Shown: positions 29,749 to 35,198 of the stretch, piece after piece
Numbering within the stretch: position 1 is the first letter of the stretch
Layout: each line of letters opens with the position of its first letter
Source of the DNA: Desulfobotulus mexicanus
GTDB taxonomy: Bacteria; Desulfobacterota; Desulfobacteria; Desulfobacterales; ASO4-4
Length of the DNA: 35,198 bases
Direction: 5' to 3'
Assembly: GCF_006175995.1 (NCBI RefSeq)
Contig: NZ_VDMB01000005.1
Location: 13-35,210, forward strand
The notes under the pieces: generated by a model
Databases searched by the model: none
What the model saw: the letters and a program-made list of their open reading frames with translations, nothing else
What the model was told of the DNA's origin: nothing
Translations under genes and position numbers: made by a program

Positions 29749-30390
29749 ATGAAGAAAACAGGATTTAAAACGATTTTCTTTGATAACGACGGCGTGCTTG
29801 TGGATACGGAAAAATGCTATTTTGAGGCCAATCAGCTGGCCCTGAAAGATTACGGTATCACCATGAGCCTTGAGGATTTTCAGAAATATTTCCTGCGCTC
29901 CTCTAAGGGGATTTATGCCATTCTTGGCGATGTATCGCAGGCAGCTTTTGAAGTCTTCAGAAAAAAAAGAAAGCAGTACCATATGGAACTGCTTGCGGAA
30001 AAACCCATTGCCATACCCGGCGTGGACCGTATACTGCCTCTTCTGGCGGAGCATTTCCGCATAGGAGTTGTAACCAGCTCGGAAAAGGAACCCTTTGAGC
30101 GGATTCACAGGCGTACGGGCTTTGCCCCGTATTTTGATTTTGTTATCTGCAGGGAAGATGTGGAATTTTCCAAGCCCCACCCGGAACCCTACCTCAAGGC
30201 ACTTACCTTTGCGGATTGTAAACCGGAATACTGCCTTGTCATTGAAGATGCCGAAAGGGGATTGCGGGCGGCCCTGGCTGCAGGTCTCTGCTGCTGGGTG
30301 ATTCCCGGCCCCATGGCCTGTGGCGGATCTTTTACCGGTGCGGAGCGTGTTCTTGGCAGTCTGGAAGAAGCTGCTTTCCTGCTGCTATGA
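29749..30390 (+). CDS. HAD-superfamily phosphatase / phosphomutase-like hydrolase
   Basis: A 213-residue subfamily IA HAD protein. Motif I is DNDGVLVDTE (nucleophile D12, acid D14), motif II VVTSSEK, motif III FSKPHPEPY and motif IV VIEDAERGL. A helical cap lies at about 20-85. The family includes phosphoglycolate phosphatase and beta-phosphoglucomutase; the cap alone does not tell the substrate. GGAAA lies 6 nt before the ATG. The 3' end overlaps that of the convergent triple-FeoA gene by 6 nt, so there is no shared transcription with the ferrosome-like cluster. Confidence 0.88.
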   Translation: MKKTGFKTIFFDNDGVLVDTEKCYFEANQLALKDYGITMSLEDFQKYFLRSSKGIYAILGDVSQAAFEVFRKKRKQYHMELLAEKPIAIPGVDRILPLLAEHFRIGVVTSSEKEPFERIHRRTGFAPYFDFVICREDVEFSKPHPEPYLKALTFADCKPEYCLVIEDAERGLRAALAAGLCCWVIPGPMACGGSFTGAERVLGSLEEAAFLLL

Positions 30391-31119
30391 AGCATCTGAT
30401 GCTTCCTGGTTCAGGATCACCCGGATTCTTAGGGCCTGATCCGGCCTGAGATAAAGGCGCAGACCTGTTTTCATCCCCACCACCACCTGATTTCGTCCAC
30501 CATGGCCTATGGGCTGGGCCGGGGTTACGGCTTCAAGGAAAAGGGTTTTTCCCGGTGCAATGGAAAATCCGTCCAGCATGGATAAAGCCCTGCTGCCACC
30601 AATGAGCTGTTTTACGAGAAAGGGTTTGCCCCTTCCTGCCATGGCAAACTGCAGCTCCCGGCCTTCCATTTCGCCCCATATTTTGGTGGCCATACCTTCT
30701 GTGAGTTTAAAATGATCATTGCCCATGCGGATATGATAATTCATGGGTGGTACCCTGTGTTCCATGCGCAGGTTGTCATTTTCCCTTATTCCCAGAATTT
30801 CAAGCCCTTCTGCCAGAGAGCTGCCGCATACAAGGCCCTCCACATGGCCCGTTTCTCCGGGAAGCATTTCCAGAACAGGGGTTTTATGACCGTCATCATG
30901 GTGAACAATCACCTTGGCAGCCATGCCTCCTGCCAGTACCACATGACCTCTGGGGCCGTGTATCCGTACCGGAACAAGGTGAACTTCCTCATCCAGACGC
31001 ATCAGGGAATCTCCTGCATAGATTCCCATGCGGGCAAGACGGTCGCTGAGTATGGCATCGTTAATTTCGGACAGGATCAGGGGCCTGTTACAGGGGGCCT
31101 GATCAAGACTGAAGAGCAT
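30385..31119 (-). CDS. protein of three tandem FeoA-like (SH3-type) domains, last gene of the ferrosome-like cluster
   Basis: A 244-residue soluble protein that divides into three similar beta-barrel units, about 1-75, 85-155 and 160-240. Each has the FeoA pattern of a small loop, (L/M)GI.(A/P/E)GD.L-like turn and a closing strand: RLARMGIYAGDSLMRL, LEILGIRENDNLRM and LDGFSIAPGKTLFL. The first two units end in GGMAAKVIV and EGMATKIWG. FeoA domains are small partners of ferrous-iron transporters and of metalloregulators. The gene starts 17 nt inside the end of the ATPase gene, with its own AAAGGAG, so the two are coupled. A role regulating or docking to the iron ATPase is inferred. Confidence 0.78.
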   Translation of the reverse strand: MLFSLDQAPCNRPLILSEINDAILSDRLARMGIYAGDSLMRLDEEVHLVPVRIHGPRGHVVLAGGMAAKVIVHHDDGHKTPVLEMLPGETGHVEGLVCGSSLAEGLEILGIRENDNLRMEHRVPPMNYHIRMGNDHFKLTEGMATKIWGEMEGRELQFAMAGRGKPFLVKQLIGGSRALSMLDGFSIAPGKTLFLEAVTPAQPIGHGGRNQVVVGMKTGLRLYLRPDQALRIRVILNQEASDAS

Positions 31120-33211
31120 CCTGTTCTCCTTTGTTCATGGCAGCATAGGCCAGAATACCGATGGTTGATGCATTGTGCAGGGCGGCGGAGGTTAGGGTGC
31201 TGATGCGTCCCGTACCCGCCAGAACCAGCAGGGTTGAATTGATACCCACCGCAGACCAGAGGGAATTATGCAGCACCCTTGCCGTGTCCCGGGCAATGCT
31301 TCTTGCCAGTACAAGGCCTTTCAGATCATCTTTCATAAGTATAACCTGGGCCGCATCCCTTGCCAGATCAGCACCTTCGGACATGCAGATGCCCACATCC
31401 GCAGAAAGCAGAGCCGGAGAATCATTCACCCCGTCCCCCACAAAGGCAACCTTTCTGCCTTCTTCCTTAAGCCTCGCCACAATACGGGCTTTGTCCTCGG
31501 GTTTCAGGCCTGCATGAACCTCATCCAGCTCTTTTAACTGATCCGCAACGGCGTGTACAGGTCTCGGCTGATCTCCGCTGAGCATCACAAGGTGATTAAA
31601 TCCTGAAGCTTTCAGGGCTTTCAGGGTGTCTCCAGCTTCGCTGCGCAGGGTATCCCTTAGGGCCATGAGTGCCACAAGCCTTCCTTCCAGAGCCATATAC
31701 AGAAGGGTTTTTCCTTCATCCTGAAGGAGGTCCGCCTTACCATCCACCTGCGTACAGGAAATCCCCTCATCTTCTTCTATGAAGTGGCGGCTTCCAACCA
31801 GTACACGCTTGTCATCCACATAGGCAGAAACGCCGTGGGCCACAATGAAATCCACCTGACTTATGGGCGGCAGGCTGAGATTTTTTTCCCTGGCAGCCTT
31901 CAGAACAGCCCTGGCAACCGGGTGACCGTAATGTTCTTCCGCACCTGCTGCCAGAGCCAGTACCTCATCTTCGGTGAAATCTTCCAAAGGCAGAATATCC
32001 GTAAGTTCCAGAAGCCCGTGGGTTAGGGTGCCGGTTTTATCAAAAATAAGGGTATCCACACTGCCCAGGGCCTCCAGGGCCTGGGCACCCTTTAGCAGCA
32101 CCCCGTTCTGGCCTGCATGGTACATGGCCGTGCGCACGGCCACGGGCGTTGCAAGCTTGATGGCACAGGAATAATCCACAGCCAGTACGGATGCGGCCCT
32201 GGCCGCTGAGCCGGTCAGGGCGTAAACACCAAGACCAATGCCGAAGGTCAGGGGCACCAGCCGGTCTGCCAGAGTATTACTCCAGCGCTGATGGCCGGAC
32301 TGGGTTCGCAGTGATTTTTCCAGAAACTTTCCGATTCGGGCCATGCTGGTTTCCTTGCCCACATTCAGGGCTTCCACCCTCAGCCTGCCTTCTTCAATGA
32401 TACCACCGGAAAGCACTTCTATTCCGGGACGGGCATGGACGGGAGAGGATTCTCCAGTAATGGAACAGGCATTTACGGAAGCTTCGCCGGATATCACAAG
32501 CCCGTCCACGGGAATCATTTCTCCGGGACCGCAGATCACAATATCCCCCACCATGGCCTGATCCGAGTCAATCAAAACCTCGGCACCATCCCTTTCCACC
32601 CTGAGCCGGTCTGCCTGGGGGCGAAGGAGGTTTTTCAGAAGATCATTGGCCTGACGGGTGCTGGATTCTTCAAGGTAGGCAGCCATGGAGAGCATAGCTC
32701 CCACGGCGTTACCCACAAAATAATTTTTCCGGGCCAGAGACATCAGCCTTACGGAAGCATCCAGCACTTCCACCTTAAGGCCTTCAGTGACAAGGGTTTC
32801 AGCACCGTTCATAAGGGTAGGAATGGACAGTGCCCAGGAAAAAGGACCCTGAAGGGATCTGGGCAGAAAGGGGGTTATGGCTGCCGCAAAGGTGCGGGTT
32901 CCCACCTCAAAAAGATCCGGCCCGCTTCCCCGGGGAGCTTCCGGCAGGAATGCCTCATTGGGAAGGTTTTTCAGCCGGATCATAATTTCATCCCGCACAT
33001 CGGCTCCGGGATCATGCTCCACCACAATGGAGCCGGAACCTGTGTTCATGCGCACCTGAAATACAGCGGGAAGGGCGGCAATGAAGGCGGTCACATAGTC
33101 GGGATCCAGGGCAGGATTGGTGAAGACTCTGCTTTTCACACGGAATCTTCCCGGAATGCTGTGTACCACCTGAACAGAGGGATTGTCTGGCATATATCGG
33201 ATTCGACTCAT
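31103..33211 (-). CDS. fezB: P1B-type ATPase of the ferrosome (FezB-like, P1B-6) class
   Basis: A 702-residue P-type ATPase. It has the actuator TGES (252-255), phosphorylation site DKTGTLT (D391), nucleotide-site HP (430-431) and hinge GDGVND (592-597). The metal-site helix has SCA (348-350, DYSCAIKLATP) where Cu/Zn pumps have CPC. SCA marks the P1B-6 group, whose known members make ferrosomes. The N-terminus lacks a CxxC metal domain; it starts SRIRYMPDNP, followed by a basic IPGRFRVKSRVF stretch and a ferredoxin-like HMA remnant. It should move iron across a membrane, in ferrosomes into the vesicle. The start overlaps the upstream 80-residue gene (ATGA) and the end overlaps the triple-FeoA gene. 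Confidence 0.85.
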   Translation of the reverse strand: MSRIRYMPDNPSVQVVHSIPGRFRVKSRVFTNPALDPDYVTAFIAALPAVFQVRMNTGSGSIVVEHDPGADVRDEIMIRLKNLPNEAFLPEAPRGSGPDLFEVGTRTFAAAITPFLPRSLQGPFSWALSIPTLMNGAETLVTEGLKVEVLDASVRLMSLARKNYFVGNAVGAMLSMAAYLEESSTRQANDLLKNLLRPQADRLRVERDGAEVLIDSDQAMVGDIVICGPGEMIPVDGLVISGEASVNACSITGESSPVHARPGIEVLSGGIIEEGRLRVEALNVGKETSMARIGKFLEKSLRTQSGHQRWSNTLADRLVPLTFGIGLGVYALTGSAARAASVLAVDYSCAIKLATPVAVRTAMYHAGQNGVLLKGAQALEALGSVDTLIFDKTGTLTHGLLELTDILPLEDFTEDEVLALAAGAEEHYGHPVARAVLKAAREKNLSLPPISQVDFIVAHGVSAYVDDKRVLVGSRHFIEEDEGISCTQVDGKADLLQDEGKTLLYMALEGRLVALMALRDTLRSEAGDTLKALKASGFNHLVMLSGDQPRPVHAVADQLKELDEVHAGLKPEDKARIVARLKEEGRKVAFVGDGVNDSPALLSADVGICMSEGADLARDAAQVILMKDDLKGLVLARSIARDTARVLHNSLWSAVGINSTLLVLAGTGRISTLTSAALHNASTIGILAYAAMNKGEQDALQS

Positions 33212-33450
33212 GGGGATTTTTTCTTTTTCGGGGTGTAGAGAAGATGATGCCAGGCACTTAAGCCCACCAGCGCAGCACCGGCAGCCACATGAAGACGACG
33301 GGAGTTTTTTGAATTTACCAGACCCGTGACTACTGTTGCTCCCAGACAGAGGGCCAGCCCCAGCTTCACCCTGTCCCTTTTCTTACGGATTTCCCCAGCA
33401 CGGGATACCTTCCCTGCTGTGCTTCTCCCCTGACATTCCATGGGATTCAT
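33208..33450 (-). CDS. 80-residue two-helix protein with membrane histidines, ferrosome-like cluster
   Basis: A short basic N-terminus (1-26) is followed by two hydrophobic helices (about 27-46 LGLALCLGATVVTGLV and 52-71 RLHVAAGAALVGLSAWHHLLY) and a Lys-rich end (TPKKKKSP). H54, and H68-H69 at the other end of helix two, could bind haem or iron; the LH..(A)G.........HH.L pattern recalls half of a cytochrome b-like or DUF4405-like bundle. AGGAGG precedes the ATG. Its stop overlaps the ATPase start by 4 nt, so it is made with the ATPase. No named family is certain. Confidence 0.72.
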   Translation of the reverse strand: MNPMECQGRSTAGKVSRAGEIRKKRDRVKLGLALCLGATVVTGLVNSKNSRRLHVAAGAALVGLSAWHHLLYTPKKKKSP

Positions 33451-33535
33451 GGCTGCCTCCTATAGTCTGCTCAAAATGATTCCCTGCCCTTGAACGATAA
33501 CCCTCTGATAATAAAAAGGGTTGATGGATTGAGCT

Positions 33536-33569
33536 GTAGGGGCAGGCACCTGTGCCTGCCCGCCCCTAC
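33536..33569. repeat. REP-like palindrome inside the cluster
   Basis: GTAGGGGCAGGCAC pairs with GTGCCTGCC..CCCCTAC over a 2-nt loop, with a three-base bulge on the right arm. It lies in the 159-nt gap between the Tyr-rich and the 80-residue genes. No T-tract follows. Sequences of this GTAGGGGC...GCCCCTAC type are common scattered palindromes in bacterial genomes. Here it could trim or stabilise mRNA and so alter the ratio of upstream to downstream products. Confidence 0.75.
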
Positions 33570-33609
33570 GGGAATCCTTTGTTCTCATTTCATTATAATG
33601 ATCAAATAA

Positions 33610-33984
33610 TCAGGATTCCTTCTGGCTCATTTCAGCCCGGATATCATGAATCTGTTCCTTAACTTCCTCTACTCCGCCCTGTACAGCAGACCATATTTTC
33701 ACCACACCGCCCACAAGGGCCTTCTGTATGGTTGGGTTGGTCAGTACAAGGGCGGCAGCAGCCCCCACCACAAAGCCTTTAAGATAGCCGGAATTGCGGA
33801 AATCCACCCAGCTTTCATAGCTGCCCGGTGCCTGGGGTGGATAATAAGCCTGGCCATCGGAATGTACGAGATACTCATTGGGGTCAGCCTGATATCCATA
33901 GGAATAAGCGGTATTATATTCCTGGGGAGCGTAATTATAGCCTGTCTGGGGGTAGTAATAGTAGGGCGTATTATTATGGCTCAT
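33610..33984 (-). CDS. Tyr/Pro-rich protein with a Gly-rich membrane module, ferrosome-like cluster
   Basis: A 124-residue protein. Residues 1-60 are low-complexity and very rich in Tyr, Pro, Gln and Asn (PYYYYPQTGYNYAPQ). Residues 66-90 form a Gly/Ala-rich hydrophobic hairpin or helix (SGYLKGFVVGAAAALVLTNP). Residues 91-124 are an amphipathic helix ending in charged residues (VEEVKEQIHDIRAEM). The middle module matches the C-terminus of the Pro/Gln-repeat protein two genes upstream (KG..VG......LT....KA). The type suggests a protein that binds or shapes vesicle membrane, with the floppy part in the cytoplasm. AGGAG lies 7 nt before the ATG. Called from sequence shape, not from a known family. 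Confidence 0.75.
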   Translation of the reverse strand: MSHNNTPYYYYPQTGYNYAPQEYNTAYSYGYQADPNEYLVHSDGQAYYPPQAPGSYESWVDFRNSGYLKGFVVGAAAALVLTNPTIQKALVGGVVKIWSAVQGGVEEVKEQIHDIRAEMSQKES

Positions 33985-34071
33985 ATTGTTCTCCTGTTCA
34001 TATATGGATCAGAAAGGGACAGGGCTGTATTTCTTAAGAAGCCCCCATGTTGTCCCGTTTTATGTAAGGAA

Positions 34072-34410
34072 TCAGGCCTTTTTGTCGGATACAGCCTTGT
34101 CAGCAAGGTATTTTACACCAATGGTTACGGAAAGAAGCCCCAGGAGAGAAAGGGTGCCCCGAAGCCCCACCGCACTCACGGCTGCTGTTCCAATGGCCGT
34201 TGCTATACCCGTGGTGGCACTTTCCTTAAGCACATCCTTGACAGCTGCTTCCTTTGTTATTTCATCCTCCTTTACCCTTCGGATGTTTTTTGCTGTGGCG
34301 ATGCTGCCTCCCACAAGGGCTCCTGCAGCACCCATGGCCAGGGAGGCTCTGGGCGCAACACCGATGTGCAGGCTGGTCGGGTTTGTGTTCTGCATATCCA
34401 TGCGGCTCAT
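34072..34410 (-). CDS. 112-residue hydrophobic protein of the ferrosome-like cluster
   Basis: Two Ala/Gly-rich hydrophobic stretches (about 24-38, LAMGAAGALVGGSIA, and about 68-100, GIATAIGTAAVSAVGLRGTLSLLGLLSVTIGVKYL) are separated by a charged helix (KNIRRVKEDEITKEAAVKDVLKESA). The plan, two small-residue-rich helices round a charged linker, is like membrane-vesicle proteins such as those of magnetosomes, without proven homology. The N-terminus is Met/Asn/Thr-rich. It starts with an ATGA overlap on the stop of the repeat protein, so both are coupled. Function unknown; association with the iron vesicle membrane is inferred from the locus. Confidence 0.72.
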   Translation of the reverse strand: MSRMDMQNTNPTSLHIGVAPRASLAMGAAGALVGGSIATAKNIRRVKEDEITKEAAVKDVLKESATTGIATAIGTAAVSAVGLRGTLSLLGLLSVTIGVKYLADKAVSDKKA

Positions 34411-35198
34411 AGGTCGGCCTCCTCTTTTGGCTGGGTATTGTTTTCAGATGAAGTTTGTTCTGCTGAAGCTGCGGCACCGGAGAGTCCGGCCAAGCCCTTT
34501 GCCAGCATGGCTTTTGGCGCATCCGTTGTGAAAAGAAGGGTGATACCCGTACCGACCAGGGCCCCTTTCCAGAAGTCTGAACTCACGGTCTGGAAGAAAT
34601 TCATGAAGCCAGAGATATCCGGCTGTCCATTGGCTGCGTCACGGATCAGGCCATAAAGATGACCATAGTGCATGGCCATATCCTGAGGGTTGGGCATCTG
34701 ACCTGCGTGGGCTGTTCCCGGAGGCGGCCCGTAAAAGGGTGCCCCGTTGGGATAGGGAGGTGCATAACCCGGCATGGCGTGGGAAGAAGATGTGGCAGAG
34801 GAACCCTTGCAGCATCCTCCCGCATGTCCGGATTTTTCAGAAGGGCTGGTTCCGGGGCTTTCCTTTGTACCCTGACCGCAGGATGCCTCTTCGGCCTGAG
34901 GAGGGGCTTCTTGGGGAGTCTGGCCTGGCATGGGATATCCCTGGGGAGCAAACTTAGGAGGCTGACCCGGCATGGGATAGCCCTGGGGTGCAAATTTAGG
35001 AGGCTGACCCGGCATGGGATATCCCTGGGGTGCAAATTTAGGAGGCTGTCCCGGCATGGGATATCCCTGTGGTGCAAATTGAGGAGCCTGCCTAGGCATG
35101 GGCTGACCCTGGGGTGCAAATTGAGGAGCCTGACCCGGCATGGGATAGCCCTGAGGTGCAAACTGGGGAGGCTGCTGACCCGGCATGGGATAACCCTG
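34407..35198 (-). CDS. Pro/Gln-rich repeat protein with a C-terminal membrane module (5' end beyond window)
   Basis: At least 263 residues; the frame is open through the right edge as repeat sequence (QGYP before the first visible Met), so that Met is unlikely to be the start. Residues 1-95 (from the Met at 35186) are tandem 14-residue units of the form QGYPMPGQPPKFAP. A Ser/Gly region with C103 and C125-C126 (GGCCKG) and a second Pro/Gly/Tyr region follow. The C-terminus (204-231, SDFWKGALVGTGITLLFTTD) is the same hydrophobic module as in the Tyr-rich protein. Tyr-, Pro- and Gln-rich repeats with cysteines suggest a flexible, possibly condensing, cytoplasmic arm on the iron vesicle. First visible gene of the cluster. 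Confidence 0.75.
   Translation of the reverse strand, partial: QGYPMPGQQPPQFAPQGYPMPGQAPQFAPQGQPMPRQAPQFAPQGYPMPGQPPKFAPQGYPMPGQPPKFAPQGYPMPGQPPKFAPQGYPMPGQTPQEAPPQAEEASCGQGTKESPGTSPSEKSGHAGGCCKGSSATSSSHAMPGYAPPYPNGAPFYGPPPGTAHAGQMPNPQDMAMHYGHLYGLIRDAANGQPDISGFMNFFQTVSSDFWKGALVGTGITLLFTTDAPKAMLAKGLAGLSGAAASAEQTSSENNTQPKEEADL
34902..35198 (-). repeat. seven 42-nt tandem repeats coding 14-residue units
   Basis: Seven near-identical in-frame units of 42 nt (one with an extra codon) run to the window edge. Three central units are almost the same at protein level (GYPMPGQPPKFAP). More copies probably lie beyond the edge. Such arrays change copy number by slippage or recombination. Confidence 0.9.

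Follow-up and report, generated by a model that had tools for sequence, protein, structure and literature searches.

Gene content and organization of the locus

The last 4.8 kb (positions 30385-35198) of a 35,198-nucleotide stretch of Desulfobotulus mexicanus DNA (contig NZ_VDMB01000005.1, positions 13 to 35,210; hereafter, the window) is filled by a run of six genes, all on the minus strand, that includes a FezB-type P1B ATPase and several small companions of the kind known from ferrosome (fez) clusters (Table 1). For this locus and its relatives, we computed gene content, gene order, family relations and co-occurrence. A first-pass annotation, made from the letters alone, had described an ATPase with an SCA motif and no N-terminal CxxC, flanked on the same strand by small proteins and an FeoA protein with overlapping or adjacent genes, and all of these are present on the minus strand, with overlaps of 17, 4 and 4 bases and gaps of 159 and 87 bases between the cluster's genes in the window. 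The cluster is longer than it had proposed, though: the genes lie where they were placed, but the run continues upstream past the window edge into genes for a second ATPase, a DUF4198 protein, FeoB and FeoA. In order of transcription, the locus reads feoA, feoB, genes for a 72-aa Cys-rich protein, a 111-aa secreted-looking protein, a DUF4198 protein (178.6 bits), a P-type ATPase with a CPC motif in transmembrane segment 4 (TM4), and a 494-aa scaffold, followed by those for a 112-aa MamC-like protein, a 124-aa Tyr-rich protein, an 80-aa two-His protein, the FezB-type ATPase and a triple-FeoA protein.

Table 1 Features of the fez-type gene run within the window, with the evidence for each assignment.
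Feature	Position	Strand	Evidence
Triple-FeoA protein, 244 aa, 3 FeoA-like domains	30385..31119	-	Pfam FeoA and AlphaFold2
FezB-type P1B ATPase, 702 aa, SCA in TM4, Arg-rich HMA_2-like N-terminus without CxxC	31103..33211	-	Motifs and tree
FezC-core protein, 80 aa	33208..33450	-	DUF4405 match below cut-off; profile match to long FezC-type proteins
FezA-like protein, 124 aa, with Tyr-rich N-terminus, Gly-rich hydrophobic helix and EEVKEQIxD tail	33610..33984	-	Profile match to DUF6110/FezA-type
MamC-like protein, 112 aa, Gly/Ala, three predicted helices	34072..34410	-	NCBIfam NF038051
Scaffold, C-terminal 263 aa of 494 aa, Pro/Gln/Gly/Tyr repeats, FezA-like C-terminal anchor	34407..35198	-	Whole gene at L003:420-1904

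The interval between the FezC-core and Tyr-rich genes (33451-33609) contains a GC-rich palindrome, seen by eye, that is possibly a repetitive extragenic palindromic (REP)-like element or an attenuator.

The ATPase belongs to a FezB-type group

The ATPase (P0002) carries VDYSCAIKL in TM4 and HNxxT near its C-terminus, and its N-terminal domain, which lacks CxxC, holds an Arg-rich stretch (PGRFRVK) and matches HMA_2 at 27.2 bits, below the cut-off of 30. It thus has neither the CPC or SPC motif nor the CxxC metal-binding domain of Cu, Zn and Co pumps, and its SCA motif, together with an Arg-rich N-terminus in place of CxxC, presumably marks a P1B-6 ATPase, the class that the first-pass annotation had also named. 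In a careful tree of 46 sequences, it joined 28 others in a FezB-type group (29 of the 46 rows, support 98/97) that excludes every CPC pump in the tree, including the second ATPase of its own locus. A quick tree of 54 rows likewise separated it from the CPC pumps, so that the grouping with Cu, Zn or Co pumps named at the outset as telling against a ferrosome was found in neither tree. These trees used 46 and 54 of the 73 collected ATPases (27 and 19 left out, respectively), with G132, G164, G139b and G197b in neither and G243 and G001 absent from the 46-sequence tree. The FezB-type group is itself divided into two halves (support 100/99 each), one made up of Desulfovibrionaceae-like and clostridial proteins with a FezA-type gene near FezB, and the other holding the window's ATPase together with proteins from Rhodobacter capsulatus, Hahella, Vibrio, Azospirillum, Cereibacter, Arcobacter and a gammaproteobacterium.

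Orthologues with 90 and 95% identity occur in two other genomes of the genus, homologues with 50-51% identity in 2 of the 55 other genomes of the order that were searched (G049, G053), and matches at E 1e-150 or better in 16 of 247 genomes of the phylum, with at most four candidates scored per genome.

Several relatives of this pump have settings of their own. Sister to the FezB-type group are cyanobacterial P1B ATPases (L089, L097) in which DFMTG or DFVTG replaces the SCA stretch, and one of these two loci has an HMA_2-like and a faintly FezA-like neighbour. One genome, G219, has both kinds of fez cluster (L043, L051), one from each half of the FezB tree. Contig G053:C37 (L016, L017) carries two FezB modules, their FezB frames ~6 kb apart, along with three kinds of P-type ATPase, and the modules adjoin FeoB, TonB-receptor-like and AraC-type genes. 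Genome G139 (G139:C105, L047, and G139:C109) has tandem FezB-like genes and an MCR magnetochrome domain, and is perhaps a magnetotactic bacterium with ferrosomes.

FezA-like, FezC-core and scaffold proteins

Profile comparisons give the small neighbours identities that the first-pass annotation, which had called them unrecognised, did not see. The family of the Tyr-rich 124-aa protein matched a DUF6110/FezA-type profile with a probability of 91.1, by which sequence measure the protein is FezA-like, and the last 100 aa of the scaffold matched the profile of this same Tyr-rich family with a probability of 98.2. The 80-aa protein, earlier described as a histidine two-helix protein, has two invariant histidines, His54 and His68, 14 residues apart (11 aligned members), as has the C-terminal half of seven longer FezC-type proteins, whose His pair is also invariant and likewise 14 apart. 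Its family profile matched this half with a probability of 94.8, and we assign it from these alignments as a FezC core with putative heme binding. Pairwise profile probabilities lack calibration against a database, and they were therefore set beside six control pairs drawn from the small families, which gave 0.3 to 8.6. FezC is described, in passages of PMC10979944, as a ferrosome-associated cytochrome that binds heme b and is related to DUF4405.

The repeat scaffold noted at first pass is real, but the window holds an incomplete copy of it, the whole protein being 494 aa long. A 45-base repeat unit is present in 11.4 copies, and the N-termini of scaffold proteins consist of 37-56% Pro, Gln, Gly and Tyr (12 measured) versus 22% in L003 frames of at least 300 aa. 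Four single Ns fall within the scaffold repeats in the assembly (L003:1212-1296), and the repeat copy number may be collapsed or variable there. Two loci, from Arcobacter (L058:7339-8022) and a gammaproteobacterium (L069:6922-7668), have a ferritin-like protein in the scaffold's usual place, that of L058 with a weak rubrerythrin/DUF2202 match, which suggests an iron-oxidation enzyme at the vesicle in those organisms.

These neighbours bear on whether the locus could instead be an iron-efflux or metal-resistance operon, in which the ATPase would export Fe2+ or another metal, the small proteins would be pump subunits or chaperones, and no organelle would form. The pump alone cannot distinguish storage from efflux, and the CPC motif of the second ATPase is that of an ordinary P1B pump; however, the adjoining FezA-like and FezC-core genes have relatives that ferrosomes elsewhere require or that have been linked with them (passages of PMC12574912 and PMC10979944), and a large membrane-anchored repeat scaffold would be an odd component of a simple efflux operon. 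We therefore regard efflux as improbable, at something like one chance in ten.

A MamC-like protein in the cluster

The family of the 112-aa protein had been overlooked at first pass. Against the NCBIfam model of the magnetosome protein MamC (NF038051), it scored E 1.4e-15 and 57.3 bits over 84 of the 97 profile positions, short of the 100-bit equivalog cut-off, and 12 of the 15 members of the first alignment of its family match the model at E 0.01. A reading of this match as mere Gly/Ala composition was rejected because the locus's other window proteins do not match NF038051, because other small families gave probabilities of only 0.3 to 8.6 against the MamC-like profile, and because only 10 of 247 sampled genomes of the phylum match the model (0/247 over its cut-off). 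A sequence search of the Protein Data Bank (PDB) with the MamC-like protein gave no match at E 10.

Each of the eight genomes whose FezB falls in the window's half (G000, G072, G211, G219, G225, G226, G266 and G267) is among these ten, and MamC-like genes occur in none of the eight genomes with only other-half FezB (G071, G132, G139, G164, G197, G243, G287 and G293). Tree halves were used throughout this comparison except for G132 and G164, which were assigned to the other half by gene order. In G225, the MamC-like and FezB genes lie on two separate short contigs. In G265 (L159, G265:C288, 3138-10160), MamC-like, scaffold, FezA-like and FezC-core genes stand with two non-FezB ATPases, no FezB having been found in the stretch of G265 read, and this is perhaps a ferrosome-type locus with a replaced pump. 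G127 has a MamC-like frame by itself, and in G053 a gene beside the second FezB copy is faintly MamC-like (E 0.04).

MamC is held to contact or seed the iron mineral of magnetosomes, and the match to its family raises the possibility that the locus is a magnetosome-like or reduced magnetosome system producing a crystalline iron mineral. A search of five genomes (G000, G001, G002, G049 and G053), without a positive control of its own, gave no match to the magnetosome marker MCR (PF18509), nor was the marker found in the eight genomes with MamC-like genes and window-half FezB. Across the 247 sampled genomes, with 31 candidates scored in those that had many, MCR matched seven (five over cut-off) and none of the ten with MamC-like genes, G000 included, which makes it unlikely that the MamC-like gene of those ten belongs to a magnetosome cluster, although so few genomes have MCR that their non-overlap is by itself no statistical evidence. 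On balance, we consider a magnetosome-type system very improbable.

A triple-FeoA protein beside the pump

The 244-aa protein encoded after FezB matches Pfam FeoA at 42.9 bits (cut-off 23) in two stretches of the whole protein, and when it was cut in three, the first part matched at E 0.007, the second at 2e-6, and the third not at all. Its AlphaFold2 model (predicted local distance difference test, pLDDT, 90) has three copies of one strand/helix order, so that of the three FeoA copies claimed at first pass, Pfam recovers two stretches and the third shows in the predicted structure. A Foldseek search with this model returned no PDB match at E 0.001, with FeoA structures at ranks 1, 3, 5, 6 and 7 (best E 0.007).

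Conservation of the gene set across loci

Profiles of the accessory families were run over 41 loci and 65 control loci, each locus's own rows being excluded. The controls, of 4 to 20 kb round other P1B ATPases, were drawn from 80 loci listed by a generic P-type motif scan of genome contigs (a sample, not a census) and are the 65 that fall outside the FezB group and its cyanobacterial sister. Window-type loci numbered 20, of which 13 were from the same phylum (three from one genus) and seven proteobacterial or campylobacterotal, with the G127 fragment not counted.

FezA-like genes were present in all 20 window-type loci and MamC-like genes in 19 (the exception being G049, where the contig ends first), and the neighbours are thus conserved beside FezB-like genes, the point on which the first-pass reading had been staked. 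A true scaffold was present in 16 of the 20 and a short FezC core in 15; the scaffold-profile matches in G049, Azospirillum, Arcobacter and gammaproteobacterium BB4 are to the FezA-like gene, not to a scaffold. Triple FeoA occurred in 11 of the 13 same-phylum loci and in none of the seven others, and G265 gave a single-FeoA match (E 4e-4). All 18 other-half loci had a FezA/DUF6110-type gene, whereas MamC-like, scaffold and triple-FeoA genes occurred in none of the 18. The two cyanobacterial loci lacked all of these. No control locus (0/65) matched the MamC-like, scaffold, FezA-like (both kinds), short FezC-core or triple-FeoA profiles; the long FezC profile, which includes the HMA_2 part and also matches ATPase N-termini, matched 3/65. 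The core of MamC-like, FezA-like and FezB genes also occurs in members of the Alphaproteobacteria, Gammaproteobacteria and Campylobacterota. With the gene set found again in further genera and its core in further phyla, but neither of them in the 65 controls, the cluster is more than a chance neighbourhood.

The company of iron genes also speaks to which metal is handled. Two P-type pumps with different TM4 motifs in one locus, their specificity judged from sequence, could fit a compartment for another metal (Mn, Co or Cu) that has iron genes nearby by coincidence. However, FeoB is found in 7 of the 20 window-type loci (and 2 of the 18 other-half loci) versus 1 of the 65 controls, and the FeoA domains belong to the locus itself, which together leave a compartment for another metal with only a slim chance.

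A probable ferrosome-type locus and how it might work

With its ATPase in the FezB-type group and FezA-like and FezC-core neighbours beside it, the cluster is a variant of the known ferrosome clusters, as the first-pass annotation had supposed, and it most likely makes an iron-storage vesicle (we put the probability of this reading at about 0.82).

Several points weigh against this reading. The reference FezB proteins of the tree were assigned by gene context and are not the characterised proteins of D. magneticus, C. difficile, R. palustris or S. putrefaciens. One SCA ATPase (Longimonas, L101) falls outside the FezB-type group, so the SCA motif of the window's pump is not diagnostic by itself. 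TM4 also varies within the group (SCV, GCA, ACA, and DYACP in two proteobacterial members). The DUF4405 match of the 80-aa protein lies below the cut-off (E 0.011), the structural model of the MamC-like protein is of low confidence (pLDDT 68), and 13 of the 20 window-type loci fetched, some of them limited by contig ends, have no FeoB. Finally, a Fur-box scan gave no Fur-box-like site exceeding shuffled sequence.

From the gene families, we infer which metal is transported, the vesicle with its mineral, and what each accessory protein does, as follows. FezB would pump Fe2+ from the cytoplasm, supplied by the neighbouring FeoAB, into a vesicle derived from the inner membrane, into which the FezA-like helices and the scaffold's FezA-like anchor would pack, shaping its membrane, while the Pro/Gln/Tyr-rich tails on the cytoplasmic face could gather the vesicles into clusters or coat them. 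The FezC-core protein might dimerise round heme and set the redox state of the stored iron, and the MamC-like protein, in the vesicle membrane, might contact or seed the iron mineral through a charged loop between its hydrophobic helices, a role also ascribed to its magnetosome namesake. The triple-FeoA protein would be a cytoplasmic, iron-responsive adaptor that tunes the FezB pump. For ferrosomes, the locus thereby offers candidates for a protein in contact with the mineral, for a scaffold of the vesicle and for an iron-sensing adaptor.

To our knowledge, ferrosomes and magnetosomes have been treated as separate iron organelles, and a MamC-family gene that accompanies one of the two FezB halves across several phyla offers a concrete link between them. 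We tentatively suggest, at somewhat less than even odds, that MamC-family proteins were ferrosome proteins first, with a MamC-like mineral-contact protein in use in one half of the ferrosome family, and are shared by descent with magnetosomes, whose MamC would have come from a fez cluster, unless the transfer ran the other way.

Comparison with known systems

The fez clusters of Desulfovibrio/Clostridioides type (FezA-FezB-FezC) share with the window locus a FezB-group ATPase, a FezA-like helix protein and a FezC core. In contrast to them, the window locus belongs to the other FezB half, its FezA-like protein has a Tyr-rich tail, its FezC core lacks the HMA_2 part, and it adds MamC-like, scaffold, triple-FeoA and second-ATPase genes. 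Loci of the other half have a FezA-type gene close to FezB (DUF6110 140 bits in L062, and 22.7 bits, below the cut-off of 26, in L051). In the clostridial ones a DUF6110/FezA-type gene precedes FezB, as in C. difficile, whose FezA is, we presume, of the DUF6110 type. Passages of PMC12574912 report that C. difficile ferrosomes need FezA and FezB, both of them Fur-repressed.

A further comparison is the cluster of Rhodopseudomonas palustris CGA009, in which ferrosomes come from the six fez genes RPA2333-2338 (passages of PMC12016538); the passages that cite the R. palustris locus tags do not give the gene products, and among the papers listed, none was recognised by title as being on the Shewanella ferrosome. 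An Azospirillum plasmid cluster in the window's half resembles it in number, with six genes in a row: a long FezC-type gene with HMA_2, a small HMA_2-like gene, a hypothetical gene, and MamC-like (its own match weak, E 3e-5), FezA-like and FezB genes. By this analogy, RPA2333-2338 is perhaps in the window's half with gene content of the Azospirillum type, and MamC-like genes may already sit in clusters that have been studied; passages of PMC12713370 mention both the ferrosome and MamC without linking them. Among the loci fetched, those of the window's phylum alone carry the triple-FeoA and second-ATPase genes.

Relative to the MamC of magnetosomes, the window protein matches the family but scores below the equivalog level, in a genome in which the MCR marker was not found. 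Similarly, its triple-FeoA protein shares family and predicted fold with FeoA but differs in having three domains per chain and in lying in a run with FezB, while the usual single-domain FeoA adjoins FeoB upstream in the same locus.

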